Below are positions 2,066 through 19,071 of a stretch of DNA of 38,529 nt, piece by piece. This stretch comes from a virus, in the IMG/VR virus record IMGVR_UViG_3300036985_003510, positions 1 through 38,529 of that record. One strand, 5' to 3'. Position 1 is the first letter of the stretch, and each line of letters begins with the position of its first letter. The translations under genes were made by a program, and so were the position numbers. Below the pieces are notes generated by a model, which did no database searches, was not told the origin of the DNA, and worked only from the letters and a program-made list of their open reading frames with translations.

Positions 2066-2156
2066 GCAAGACAGAAAAAGGATTTGTCCCCGTGGTCGCC
2101 GGTCATCCGGTAATTCTTCCCGTCAGGGATAGTCTTGCAGGACTGCGGGGATTTTC
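2066..2156 (+). ncRNA. Pseudoknotted leader RNA, copy A
   Basis: Helix P1 pairs GCAAGAC (2066-2072) with GTCTTGC (2132-2138). Helix P2 pairs TCCCCG (2087-2092) with CGGGGA (2146-2151). Because the order is P1a-P2a-P1b-P2b, the fold is a pseudoknot. Inside lie hairpin A, GCCGG-UCAU-CCGGU (2098-2111), and hairpin B, UUCCC-GUCA-GGGAU (2117-2130). A TTTTC run follows P2, and the start codon of the next gene lies at 2174 after an AGGGAGG ribosome site. Copies at 10051 and 18373 keep every helix with different bases. Function is unknown; I infer a cis-acting leader. Confidence 0.85.
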
Positions 2157-2173: not shown

Positions 2174-2791
2174 ATGGGTACGGAGTCTAAACAGGATTCG
2201 GCACTGGTCGGGATCCAGCAGGTAGAATTGACATTGAGGGGGCGGCCCGGTTCCCCGCTTGTCATCCATGCCTTTGCTGAAAAGGCAAAGCAGGAGATAC
2301 GGGATAAGCAGCAGAAGAAGGCAAAGAAGGCCAAAGAACAGCGTGACCCCCATGCCGAGTTTCTGGCATCGCGGTACGTTGACGAACAGGGACGTGAATG
2401 TGCCCCTATAACAGCACTTAAGAAAAGCATTATCACGGCGGCGACGGCGTTTGAAGACGTGACTAAGGTCGGATTGCGTCAAGCCGTGTTCGTTGATTCG
2501 GTTGCCGTGCCGGGAGCGGCTCTTGTGCCTATCGAAAAGCATGACGGTACGCTTGCTGTAGGGGTCATGCGCGAGGATGCCGTTACTATCGGAATCAACA
2601 CGCGAGGTCTAACGTATCGGCCCGAGTACAAGGAATGGCAGTTGAGAATCAGGGTTGAGTTTAACCCGCGCATCGTGAGCAAGGAGCAGTTGCTTGCTCT
2701 GGTAGATCAGGCTGGCTGGGGTGTCGGCATTTGCGAAGGCAGGCCGGAACGGTCAAGCGCGTTGGGTTGGGGTCGGTTCATGAGGGTGTAG
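2174..2791 (+). CDS. Conserved phage protein of unknown function, single-gene rightward unit
   Basis: About 205 residues, starting at an ATG with an AGGGAGG site 4-5 bases upstream. A Lys/Gln-rich charged helix (about residues 35-60, many KAK and KKAK steps) is followed by a compact alpha/beta C-terminal part ending in a Gly-Arg-Phe motif. I recall similar phage proteins near recombination genes, but I cannot assign a biochemical role; a nucleic-acid-binding RAMP-like or annealing fold is only a guess. It has its own promoter, leader RNA, G-rich 3' region and terminator, and it is antisense to the leftward late genes, so it looks like a moron: an independently expressed added gene. Confidence 0.8.
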   Translation: MGTESKQDSALVGIQQVELTLRGRPGSPLVIHAFAEKAKQEIRDKQQKKAKKAKEQRDPHAEFLASRYVDEQGRECAPITALKKSIITAATAFEDVTKVGLRQAVFVDSVAVPGAALVPIEKHDGTLAVGVMREDAVTIGINTRGLTYRPEYKEWQLRIRVEFNPRIVSKEQLLALVDQAGWGVGICEGRPERSSALGWGRFMRV

Positions 2792-3084
2792 TTTTCGGCA
2801 GGTTGGGTGAAGTCTGGATTGTCCCAGCCGGGCACGGTACGGAAGGGTATGACAGGCATGGTCTGGCACAGCATGGATGGGAGAGGATTGGATGGGCGGG
2901 ACATGGCGTGGCACGGACATTCGGGTATGGAATGTTTTAGTGTGGCAGGCGCGGTGGGGCCTAGCGCGGACGGGCCAGGAGGGGCCGAGTGGGGATTGGC
3001 CAAGTGTGGCATGGCCGGCGTGGCGAGGCGTGATTGAGCACGGTATAGTTGGGTCAGGCGGTGAGTTGTAAGACAAGGCATGGT
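2792..3084 (+). other. G-rich, GGYAYGG-studded 3' tract with no credible gene
   Basis: From the stop of the 2174 gene to the terminator the plus strand is very rich in G and poor in C. The words GGCATGG, GGCACGG and GGTATGG recur irregularly about ten times. All frames stay open for 60-100 codons here, but the peptides are Gly/Trp/His/Arg low-complexity products of the base bias (WHG, GHG, GMA repeats), have no ribosome site, and I do not believe them. Several GGG and GG runs near 2877-2915 could form G-quadruplexes. The tract sits in the 3' untranslated part of the transcript. Confidence 0.6.
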
Positions 3085-3118
3085 TCAGGGGAGGACTAAC
3101 ACTCCCCTGATTTTCTTT
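3085..3118 (+). terminator. Rho-independent terminator of the 2174 unit
   Basis: A perfect 9-bp stem, TCAGGGGAG (3085-3093) with CTCCCCTGA (3102-3110), has an 8-base loop and is followed by TTTTCTTT. This is a classical intrinsic terminator for rightward transcription. There is no T-run on the other side, so leftward transcripts should pass. The left arm overlaps the stop codon of the leftward HTH gene. Confidence 0.92.
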
Positions 3119-9292: not shown

Positions 9293-9580
9293 TTACCATC
9301 TGCCTGCTGGCTTTTCGGCTGATCCCTTGCGTCCTTCTGCAACGTATCCATATTCGTAGTTGGGGCGAACCATCACGGGCTTCTTTCCGATAACGCGCAA
9401 CCTCTGCACGTCAAACCATCGTGAGTCTTCCTGCTTGCCAGCCTCACCCGCTTTGGGCGTTACTATAGCCTGAATGCATCCGTACAGGTCGAATGACACT
9501 GAGGAGACAACTCCGGTATACCCGGTCACCTGATCGCGCACTTTCATTCCCAGCAGTTCCATGTGTTTCTGCATGTTCAT
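9293..9580 (-). CDS. Conserved phage protein with a KVxDxVTGYTGVV motif
   Basis: 95 residues from the ATG at 9580, chosen because AAAGGAG lies just upstream; longer in-frame readings lack a site. Residues 8-60 form a small beta-barrel-like unit (KVRDQVTGYTGVVSSVSF, then GCIQAIVTP and WFDVQRL) that I recognise as a recurrent small phage protein resembling a KOW/SH3-type barrel. The function is not known to me. Confidence 0.7.
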   Translation of the reverse strand: MNMQKHMELLGMKVRDQVTGYTGVVSSVSFDLYGCIQAIVTPKAGEAGKQEDSRWFDVQRLRVIGKKPVMVRPNYEYGYVAEGRKGSAEKPAGRW

Positions 9581-10014: not shown

Positions 10015-10043
10015 TTGCACCTTTAACACACTTCTGCTAGTCT
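10015..10043 (+). promoter_or_regulatory. Rightward promoter PB (extended -10)
   Basis: TTGCAC at 10015-10020, a 17-nt spacer, TG at 10035-10036 and TAGTCT at 10038-10043. The predicted start near 10050 is one base before the first helix of leader RNA copy B. It should drive the recombination and replication operon. Confidence 0.7.
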
Positions 10044-10050
10044 CTCTCTT

Positions 10051-10147
10051 GTGCCACAGAAAAGAACAACATTGCCCCGCGTGGGTGCCGGTTATCCGGT
10101 CACCATTTCTCGTCCGAGGACTGTGGCACGCCTGCGCGGGGTCTTTC
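10051..10147 (+). ncRNA. Pseudoknotted leader RNA, copy B
   Basis: P1 pairs GTGCCACAG (10051-10059) with CTGTGGCAC (10121-10129), nine perfect pairs. P2 pairs CCCCGCG (10075-10081) with CGCGGGG (10135-10141), seven pairs. Hairpin A is GCCGG-UUAU-CCGGU (10087-10100) and hairpin B is UUCUC-GUCC-GAGGA (10107-10120). TCTTTC follows P2. The order and spacing equal copies A and C while P1 shares no sequence with them. It leads the main early operon; the next start codon is at 10162. Confidence 0.88.
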
Positions 10148-10161
10148 ATGAGGTAATCACA

Positions 10162-10245
10162 ATGACACTCTTCCGGCGTCGCAACAGGAGAACGGGCAGC
10201 AGGTTGCCTGTGTGGTTTTGGGAGAAACTCCTTGAACACGTTTGA
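10162..10245 (+). CDS. 27-residue basic leader peptide
   Basis: The first ORF after leader RNA copy B, with GAGG eight bases upstream. It is strongly basic at the N-terminus (FRRRNRRTG) and ends with aromatic residues (VWFWEKLLEH). Its 3' end overlaps the TTG start of the nuclease gene, so its translation probably feeds that gene. It may be a true small protein or only a coupling peptide. Confidence 0.5.
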   Translation: MTLFRRRNRRTGSRLPVWFWEKLLEHV

Positions 10246-15809: not shown

Positions 15810-16613
15810 ATGAACGCTGATTCATTCACAAAACTCTTCGGAACCATCCTGACATCCTCCATATGGAGCGAAGACGACAAAACCCGCATTATGTGGATCA
15901 CCCTGTTGGCCTGTGCCGATGCTGACGGATACTGTGCCGGTTCGGTTGTGGGCTTTGCGGTAATGGCCCGAATGAAACTGGAAGACGCTCAACAAGCCAT
16001 GGCGCGGCTTGAGTCGCCGGATCCACACTCCCGCACTACCGACCACGAGGGCAGGAGAATGTTGAAGGTTGACGGGGGATGGTTGCTTGTGAACTACACG
16101 AAATACAGGGAAATTGCCAAGAAAGAGGGTCGCCGGGAGTATTTGAGGATGAAACAGCGGGAGCATCGTTGTCAACAACTGTCAACAACTGTCAACAAAC
16201 CGTCAACAACTCCCTCTGCTTCTGTATCTGCTTCTTCTTCTGGCTCTTCTCTGGAAGGGGGATGCAAGGGGGTACCGACGCGGGATGAAGCAAAGGTGTA
16301 CGCGGCAGAATTGAAGTTTGAGGGATGGGAAGCGTGGTACGATCACTTCGAAAGCAACGGGTGGAAGGTATCGGGCAAGGCCCCCATGAAGGACTGGCGG
16401 GCCGCGATGAGGAATGGGAAGCGCATGGCGGGGCAGTTCACGGGCAAGACTGCCGGGGGTTCCAGGTTCCCTCCCAGCATCAAGGAACTGGTGGCGGTAC
16501 GCACACAACTACAGGCCGACCTTGCCTCGGCTGCCGATTGCGACAAACCCACCGATGAGATCCGCAAACGGATAGCAGACATCAACAGACAAATCAGCGA
16601 GGGGGGAAAATGA
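15810..16613 (+). CDS. Replication initiator-like protein with internal iterons
   Basis: 267 residues. Residues about 1-100 look like the winged-helix N-terminal domain of phage O/DnaD-type initiators (WITLLACADADGYCAGS, then AQQAMARLESPD and a GGWLLVNYTKYRE segment). A low-complexity Ser/Thr linker (about 122-152) separates it from a helical C-terminal part that could bind helicase loader or helicase (WEAWYDHFESNGW ... DWRAAMRNG). The linker DNA contains four GTCAACAA repeats, as lambda O contains its own origin. It lies downstream of helicase and methyltransferase in one operon. Confidence 0.7.
   Translation: MNADSFTKLFGTILTSSIWSEDDKTRIMWITLLACADADGYCAGSVVGFAVMARMKLEDAQQAMARLESPDPHSRTTDHEGRRMLKVDGGWLLVNYTKYREIAKKEGRREYLRMKQREHRCQQLSTTVNKPSTTPSASVSASSSGSSLEGGCKGVPTRDEAKVYAAELKFEGWEAWYDHFESNGWKVSGKAPMKDWRAAMRNGKRMAGQFTGKTAGGSRFPPSIKELVAVRTQLQADLASAADCDKPTDEIRKRIADINRQISEGGK
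16171..16209 (+). repeat. Four phased GTCAACAA iterons (candidate origin)
   Basis: GTCAACAA starts at 16171, 16181, 16191 and 16202, spaced 10, 10 and 11 bases, about one helical turn each. A pyrimidine-rich segment follows to about 16250. The position inside the initiator gene resembles lambda ori. The encoded Thr/Ser/Gln-rich linker could by itself produce such repetition, so an origin is inferred and not shown. Confidence 0.5.
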
Positions 16614-18335: not shown

Positions 18336-18364
18336 TTGACATCTACAGAAGGATTTGATAATGT
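18336..18364 (+). promoter_or_regulatory. Rightward promoter PC (near-consensus, extended -10)
   Basis: TTGACA at 18336-18341, a 17-nt spacer and TAATGT at 18359-18364, with TG at 18356-18357. The predicted start near 18371 lies two bases before the first helix of leader RNA copy C. Confidence 0.82.
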
Positions 18365-18372
18365 TCTCTCAT

Positions 18373-18468
18373 GCAATCAGAAATGAACAAGAAGTTTTCC
18401 CGCTGGCCGCTGGTTATCCAGCACTCTTTCCCGCATGGGAACTGATTGCAGGGCTGGCGGGATTTTTC
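18373..18468 (+). ncRNA. Pseudoknotted leader RNA, copy C
   Basis: P1 pairs GCAATCAG (18373-18380) with CTGATTGC (18442-18449). P2 pairs TCCCGC (18398-18403) with GCGGGA (18457-18462). Hairpin A is GCUGG-UUAU-CCAGC (18409-18422), where the C-G pairs of copies A and B are replaced by U-A and the G-U by G-C. Hairpin B is UUCCC-GCAU-GGGAA (18428-18441). TTTTTC follows. The start codon of the HNH gene is at 18481 after TTGGAG. This copy provides the clearest compensatory changes. Confidence 0.88.
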
Positions 18469-18480
18469 TTGGAGACGCTC

Positions 18481-19071
18481 ATGCGCATACTTAAAGAGTG
18501 TAAACAGTGCGGCAATACATTCTTGGCAGACTCTAGCGAGATAAAGCGGGGCAGAGGTTTATACTGCGGGCGTTATTGTGCGTTTATTTCTTTACGCAAA
18601 AACAATATACAGCCAATCTTTTCCGAAGAAGACCAAGACATGGGGAAGATTCACTGGCACGCAAACAGTGATGGGTACCCAATGATAAATGTTCAGACAG
18701 GAACAAACTACAAGACCAGAAAAGCAGTCAAGGCGCATCGTATTGTATTGTCGAGAATGCTGAATAGACAATTATCCACTTCTGATATTTGCGACCATAT
18801 TAATCATGATAAAATGGATAATCGAAGACAGAATCTGCGGCTTTGTTCTTGGCAAGAAAATTGCCTCAACAGAGATCCAGCGACTCATCCTAGTCGTGGT
18901 GCATCATATCATAAGTACAGGAGAAAGTGGCAGGCAAGATGTCGCGTAGGCAAAGAGGTATATTGTGGATTATGGGACACCAAAGAGGAAGCCATGAAAG
19001 CGTCTGAACAAAAAAGACAGGAACTTATCGCCTCTACGGCCCTTATGATCGTGGAGAAGGGGGGAGTATGA
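18481..19071 (+). CDS. HNH endonuclease with AP2-like DNA-binding domain
   Basis: 196 residues; the ORF continues upstream through the leader RNA, but TTGGAG points to the ATG at 18481. An N-terminal zinc knuckle (CKQCG ... CGRYC) is followed by the HNH core AHRIVLSRML ... CDHINHDKMDN (about 85-114) and NLRLCS. The C-terminus (about 145-185) resembles an AP2-type DNA-binding domain (KWQARCRVGKEVYCGLWDT). This layout is typical of free-standing phage homing endonucleases. It is expressed from its own promoter and leader RNA. Its A+T-richer sequence suggests separate acquisition. Confidence 0.88.
   Translation: MRILKECKQCGNTFLADSSEIKRGRGLYCGRYCAFISLRKNNIQPIFSEEDQDMGKIHWHANSDGYPMINVQTGTNYKTRKAVKAHRIVLSRMLNRQLSTSDICDHINHDKMDNRRQNLRLCSWQENCLNRDPATHPSRGASYHKYRRKWQARCRVGKEVYCGLWDTKEEAMKASEQKRQELIASTALMIVEKGGV

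Follow-up and report, generated by a model that had tools for sequence, protein, structure and literature searches.

A 38.5-kb IMG/VR virus record, analysed over its whole length and referred to here as the window, carries three plus-strand segments (copies A, B and C) in which a first-pass annotation recognised a single pseudoknotted architecture at the start of rightward transcripts. We asked whether these segments belong to an RNA family in their own right, and what such an RNA might do at the 5' end of a phage message. All three are present, at 2065-2152 (A), 10050-10142 (B) and 18372-18462 (C) after refinement of their ends, and they are the sole matches in the window to TGGNNGCYGGTYATCC at up to two mismatches.

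Fold and membership of the RNA family

Each copy is built, from its 5' end, of P1a, an A-rich linker, P2a with a UGG core, hairpin A, hairpin B, P1b, and a CUG core with P2b. In copy A these parts lie at 2065-2072, 2073-2085, 2086-2097, 2098-2111, 2118-2129, 2132-2139 and 2141-2152; in copy B at 10050-10059, 10060-10073, 10074-10086, 10087-10100, 10107-10120, 10121-10129 and 10130-10142; and in copy C at 18372-18380, 18381-18397, 18398-18408, 18409-18422, 18428-18441, 18442-18450 and 18452-18462. The P1 helix reported earlier stands, with its lengths revised from 7, 9 and 8 pairs to 8, 9-10 and 9 in A, B and C, respectively.

A scan of IMG/VR viral contigs with TGGNNGCYGGTTATCCRG returned 67 loci, roughly the number expected by chance. 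Filtering these for structure (P1 of at least 6 pairs, P2 of at least 5 pairs, hairpin A and CUG) left seven additional distinct copies on six otherwise different phage contigs, namely L028, L033, L036, L038, L050 and L066, the last with two, giving ten copies on seven phages; the L033 element also occurs on L043 and L069 and was counted once. A general descriptor that places no demand on hairpin A sequence (P1 of at least 7 pairs, P2 of at least 5, and a paired UGG-N-Y/R-N'-CUG core) recovered the ten copies and no others from both strands of 4.48 Mb of DNA, and at equal stringency found zero matches in the reversed sequence. We also built a covariance model, R2, from P1, hairpin A and hairpin B. 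The ten copies score 49-78 bits with it (A 67.7, B 75.7 and C 76.1), compared with at most 28 bits for background loci preselected for the core motif. Copies at the promoters of other phages are an outcome that the first-pass annotation, with related phages in mind, had named as support.

Wider searches added no members. The whole records of the element-bearing contigs held no extra copies, and further motif variants in IMG/VR yielded none after filtering. Among the at least 118 matches listed for GTDB contigs with the core motif, all were background by R2 and by eye, as were all 12 matches in 388 Verrucomicrobiota genomes; R2 applied to 20 genomes, with no more than 150 candidates scored in each, gave no new member, a result of little weight. 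A short-core blast search of INPHARED found no match, with a query that was probably too short to be informative.

All ten copies share the interleaved P1 and P2, the paired UGG/CUG core and hairpin A, whose loop is UYAU in 10/10, as had been described for the window. Hairpin B is likewise present in 10/10; its GNNN loop, attributed to the family on the basis of A, B and C, holds in seven of the ten copies and fails in the rest. The UGG with the two bases that follow it, and the 5-7 nt ending in CUG, had been taken as unpaired. Instead, UGG-N-Y pairs with R-N'-CUG, so that P2 extends to 11-13 pairs. UGG pairs invariantly with CUG as U·G, G·U and G-C, the N-N' pair is C-G in five copies, G-C in three, and A-U and U-A in one each, and the next pair is Y-R. 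Hairpin A adjoins P2 without a linker and stacks directly on it, hairpin B abuts or nearly abuts P1b, and the linker preceding P2 is 50% A. The sequences of P1 and P2 are free to vary between copies, whereas hairpin A and the UGG/CUG core are conserved (UGGNYGCYGGUYAUCYRGY ... RN'CUG), which places the conserved centre of the RNA at the hairpin A/P2 core. The lowest-energy pseudoknot-free fold consists of P2 plus hairpin A in 10/10 leaders.

In a gapless alignment of the ten copies (A3), in which linker and loop lengths were trimmed or padded by hand, 99.4% of cells are standard pairs compared with 68% in shuffles, two-sided changes occur at 25 of the 32 pairs, and the covariation score is 0.89 against 0.24 when shuffled; sliding one strand by 1-3 columns reduces the score to 0.17 or less. 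Unedited sequences aligned by R2, which contains no P2 information (A4), gave 99.2% pairing for P2 alone and a covariation of 0.81 against 0.24. The covariation of P1 and P2 proposed from the window copies is thereby borne out, although it was partly selected for, because the filter that picked out the copies beyond the window required P1/P2 pairing and the UGG/CUG core. Independent of that first filter are the N-N' and Y-R core pairs (20/20 cells), hairpin B (10/10), the promoter position, the U-rich tract and the distance to the start codon. Given these features and the empty reversed control, we regard copies A, B and C and the seven others as a confirmed family of pseudoknotted RNAs of about 95 nt, as judged from their sequences. 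A function at the level of DNA, as a recombination hairpin, was rejected, since the G-U pairs, both invariant and variable, are meaningful only for RNA of one strand.

This RNA corresponds to no class that we could find, as had been suspected. Rfam 15 gave no match in the window at the gathering threshold and, in E-value mode, applied to six loci that carry seven copies, two weak unrelated matches that both lie outside the elements; the open-licence literature yielded no description of such a pseudoknotted RNA. The family is apparently undescribed. A lack of covariation, hits confined to a single site or a match to Rfam, each of which the annotation had held to speak against its proposal, was in no case what we found. 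HDV-like ribozymes resemble the element in having P1 at the 5' end, interleaved P1 and P2, and a hairpin stacked on P2. Their order, however, is P1-P2-P3-P1'-P4-P2', whereas the second hairpin of the element precedes P1b, its P1b-P2b gap is 0-1 nt, it has nothing upstream to cleave, and it has no Rfam match.

Promoters, the U-rich tract and downstream genes

Promoter-like -35 and -10 hexamers precede 10/10 copies, nine of them fair to good and one poor; out of a maximum of 13, eight copies score 8-11, copy B 7 and L038 6, with the hexamers 16-17 nt apart. In the window, where all three promoters are on the plus strand with a 17-nt spacer and TG before the -10, they read TTGTAA (2029-2034) and TACATG (2052-2057) for copy A, TTGCAC (10015-10020) and TAGTCT (10038-10043) for copy B, and TTGACA (18336-18341) and TAATGT (18359-18364) for copy C. 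Promoter-like sequences do lie directly upstream, as had been described, at an amended distance: the -10-like hexamer ends 5-8 nt, rather than 8-9 nt, before P1 in 10/10 copies. It follows that the predicted +1 lies within about 2 nt of P1, in agreement with the proposal that the RNA itself begins with P1.

The predicted transcripts start with an NUG triplet at about +1 (AUG in 5/10; 2064, 10049 and 18371 in the window), which is tied up in P1. A leaderless upstream ORF beginning there was considered and set aside: copy C and L033 have a peptide-like stretch in common, but other copies show a different frame, and we therefore take the triplet as a chance feature. The two elements of L066 (G006), at 9361 and 10983, have an identical 38-bp promoter, from TTGACA to TATG, with P1 and P2 almost completely different. 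Either the helices would be drifting fast, with compensation, or selection would be keeping copies in the same genome different.

Behind P2b, 57 of the 80 positions in the first 8 nt are U (71%), and this excess was reached by 0 of 200000 resamplings; other gene starts of six element phages carry, on average, 1.86 U per 8 nt. The tract occupies 2152-2159 in copy A, where a terminator-like match overlaps P2b, 10142-10149 in copy B and 18463-18470 (TTTTTCTT) in copy C, all on the plus strand; L050 has a weak tract, and A, B and L028 have a moderate one. A start codon follows 17-22 nt from the end of P2b in 10/10 copies. What the sequences themselves show is that the family exists, how it folds, that it is placed at promoters, that a U-rich tract lies behind it and how far away the start codon is.

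The genes behind the copies are unrelated to one another. Copy A precedes a Vipr-like gene, copy B an early operon with its first start codon at 10162 and an exonuclease-like gene near 10232, and copy C an HNH endonuclease gene at 18481-19071, in each case on the plus strand. HNH genes also follow L028 and the second L066 copy (L066b), whereas L033 precedes a replication initiation protein, L038 a probable replication protein (by resemblance only), L036 a Cas7-like gene, and L050 and L066a DNA methyltransferases. Elsewhere in the window, four copies of a tandem repeat of about 10 nt (TGTCAACAAC) lie within a coding region at 16170-16211. Across the seven element phages, no protein family is common to all, the widest, DNA methyltransferases, being found in four. 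This makes the element portable, with the same fold standing ahead of unrelated genes in phages that have few genes in common, and probably independent of any shared phage protein; a partner is more likely to be host-derived or a ligand. The protein neighbours of these phages belong to many different bacterial groups. Phages of several unrelated lineages appear to begin some of their early mRNAs with this RNA.

The VIPR-like unit behind copy A

VIPR systems, reported in 2026, consist of a Vipr protein and a vrRNA of GGY/NN repeats (PMC13142463). Behind copy A, on the plus strand, lie a Vipr-like (RAMP) gene encoding 205 aa (2174-2791; PHROG 4652), a G-rich vrRNA-like tract with GG every 5 nt (2792-3080, clearest at 2855-2987) and a strong intrinsic terminator hairpin that closes the unit (3085-3110) and is followed by TTTTCTTT. 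A stretch of 60 residues of the protein matches the solved Vipr protein of SUSP1 (36pp_D, E 2.5e-4). Along the tract of about 290 nt the Y position is often A or G, making the repeat GGNNN more than GGYNN. Positions 2174-3110 (+) are thus probably a VIPR locus, apparently of a divergent type. Decoding the tract by the 1-nt skip rule gave no targets with two or fewer mismatches in the sequences scanned, and AlphaFold models made without alignments had pLDDT values too low to use (38 for this protein, 33 for the Cas7-like protein of L036).

A unit of similar layout, and the same kind of locus, lies behind the L036 copy at 7705-6620 on the minus strand, where a 198-aa Cas7-like gene is followed by a G-rich tract with weaker 5-nt periodicity and a strong terminator, and where terminase and portal genes flank the unit on the opposite strand. 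Four Vipr-like relatives of the L036 gene occur in human gut phages (L264-L267); L264, the one inspected, likewise carries a G-rich tail.

Since copies A and L036 head Vipr-like or Cas7-like genes, the pseudoknotted RNA could itself be a VIPR component, either a vrRNA tail or a VIPR-specific regulator, and SUSP1 vrRNA tails do contain a pseudoknot (PMC13142463). The likeness extends to a phage RNA with a small pseudoknot and to VIPR-like genes behind 2/10 copies; the SUSP1 pseudoknot, however, is a short H-type one at the 3' end of the repeat RNA, and R2 scored at most 11 bits across the SUSP1 VIPR locus, with no match. Furthermore, the element itself has no YNNGG repeat tract, the other element phages checked have no GG-periodic tract as strong as that of the window, the four gut-phage relatives lack the pseudoknot leader, and eight copies stand before other genes. 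The SUSP1 result, the absence of tracts elsewhere and the element-free relatives largely refute a VIPR-specific RNA, and we consider this reading most improbable.

Possible roles of the leader

The leader probably controls expression of the gene behind it, whether that gene encodes a DNA enzyme, a protein that starts replication or an RNA-guided weapon against phages. As to how, we tentatively favour, at a little short of an even chance, the reading that the RNA works in cis as a structured 5' leader on early phage mRNAs and, like an attenuator, gates expression at the U-tract, because its parts follow a terminator- or pause-like order that is completed last in transcription. Transcription would start no more than about 2 nt from P1. 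The two hairpins, A and B, and P1 could form at first, and P2b, synthesised last, would pair back across P1, so that P2 (11-13 pairs, mostly GC-rich, on hairpin A) would close while RNA polymerase crosses the U-rich tract. The succession of A-rich linker, GC helix and U-tract is that of an intrinsic terminator or hairpin pause, into which a pseudoknot has been built. The U-tract would be the site of pausing or termination, the hairpin A/P2 core a putative site at which RNA polymerase, a host factor or a ligand is recognised, and the element would regulate how much transcription enters the gene that starts 17-22 nt downstream.

As in intrinsic terminators, a GC-rich helix has a U-rich tract directly behind it. 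Attenuators and riboswitch leaders likewise lie between promoter and ribosome site with a conserved core, a GC helix and a U-tract, but the element differs from them in that its last helix is the pseudoknot helix and its genes are not metabolic. What speaks against gating is that pseudoknot-free folding of the ten leaders revealed no conserved competing antiterminator helix, and hence no mutually exclusive pairing of the attenuator type; that the U-tract is weak in L050; that the A-rich linker pairs just slightly better with its own U-tract than with those of other copies, a weak complementarity (permutation P = 0.03); and that a U-rich stretch ahead of a ribosome site can also serve translation.

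In another reading, which we hold to be doubtful, the element protects the mRNA 5' end and/or serves as a platform for translation initiation. Here P1 (8-12 pairs, stacked within the fold) would sequester the first nucleotides and block 5'-end-dependent decay, while the U-tract and the fixed spacing would aid the ribosome. 5'-terminal stem-loops are known to stabilise the ompA, aprE and SP82 mRNAs, the folds are very stable, nearly all copies have their predicted start no more than about 2 nt from P1, and a ribosome-binding sequence and start codon follow within 17-22 nt of P2b. A plain hairpin would suffice for such a role, however, leaving the invariant UGG/CUG pairs and the conserved hairpin A unexplained. 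Considerably less probable still is a standalone small RNA that would end in the U-tract after about 100 nt and act in trans. It would have its own promoter and a tract like those of intrinsic terminators, but the constant distance of 17-22 nt to the start codon argues for a leader, and P1, P2, the linkers and the hairpin B loop have no common sequence, so that there is no common antisense region.

Two RNAs that act on RNA polymerase invite comparison. The EAR RNA of Bacillales is also cis-acting and pseudoknotted, and modifies RNA polymerase for processive antitermination; it sits inside bacterial polysaccharide operons, whereas the element is found at phage start sites, the two being compared in sequence by the Rfam scan. 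The put RNAs of phage HK022 bind directly to the beta' zinc-binding domain of RNA polymerase and cause terminator read-through. A put-like RNA, as suggested by the first-pass annotation, would bind the transcribing polymerase and make it ignore later pauses and terminators. Like put, the element sits at the start of early transcripts in more than one copy per phage, at several early promoters, with no phage protein common to all and a U-rich, pause-like tract directly behind it; put requires no phage protein, and putL works from the start of the PL transcript (PMC9378689). The folds are nevertheless different, put measuring about 70 nt and consisting of two stem-loops arranged as a V, with a short triple helix and no interleaved pseudoknot (PMC9378689). 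Conserved bases and topology also differ, putR lies 270 nt from the transcript start whereas the interleaved P1/P2 pseudoknot begins at +1, and R2 found no match in 12 kb of HK022. No strong intrinsic terminators were found inside the copy B-C operon on the plus strand, and we favour this role less because the A and L036 units are single-gene with their own terminators, where read-through would run antisense into late genes. We therefore consider a put-like function unlikely.

Returning to control at the nascent 5' end, we propose, as a possibility clearly short of probable, that the family represents a new class of start-site-locked pseudoknotted RNA with no kinship to any described family. 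With it, diverse phages would use the 5' end to control RNA polymerase or the ribosome, or to sense a host signal, and would do so simultaneously at several early promoters, among them those of VIPR-like genes. Structured leader RNAs are of a known kind in phages; within the reach of these tools, the family is new. The leader RNAs of phages have been little mapped, and pseudoknotted RNA families with this much covariation are uncommon. Since the same fold precedes unrelated genes in phages sharing few genes, its portability points to a general host target or signal and not to a gene-specific regulator. Should the element prove to act on RNA polymerase, phages would have a second solution besides put; should it prove to be a sensor, it would reveal what an infecting phage measures. 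Finally, its position at the head of Vipr-like units may offer a way of learning how these recently described weapons between phages are turned on.
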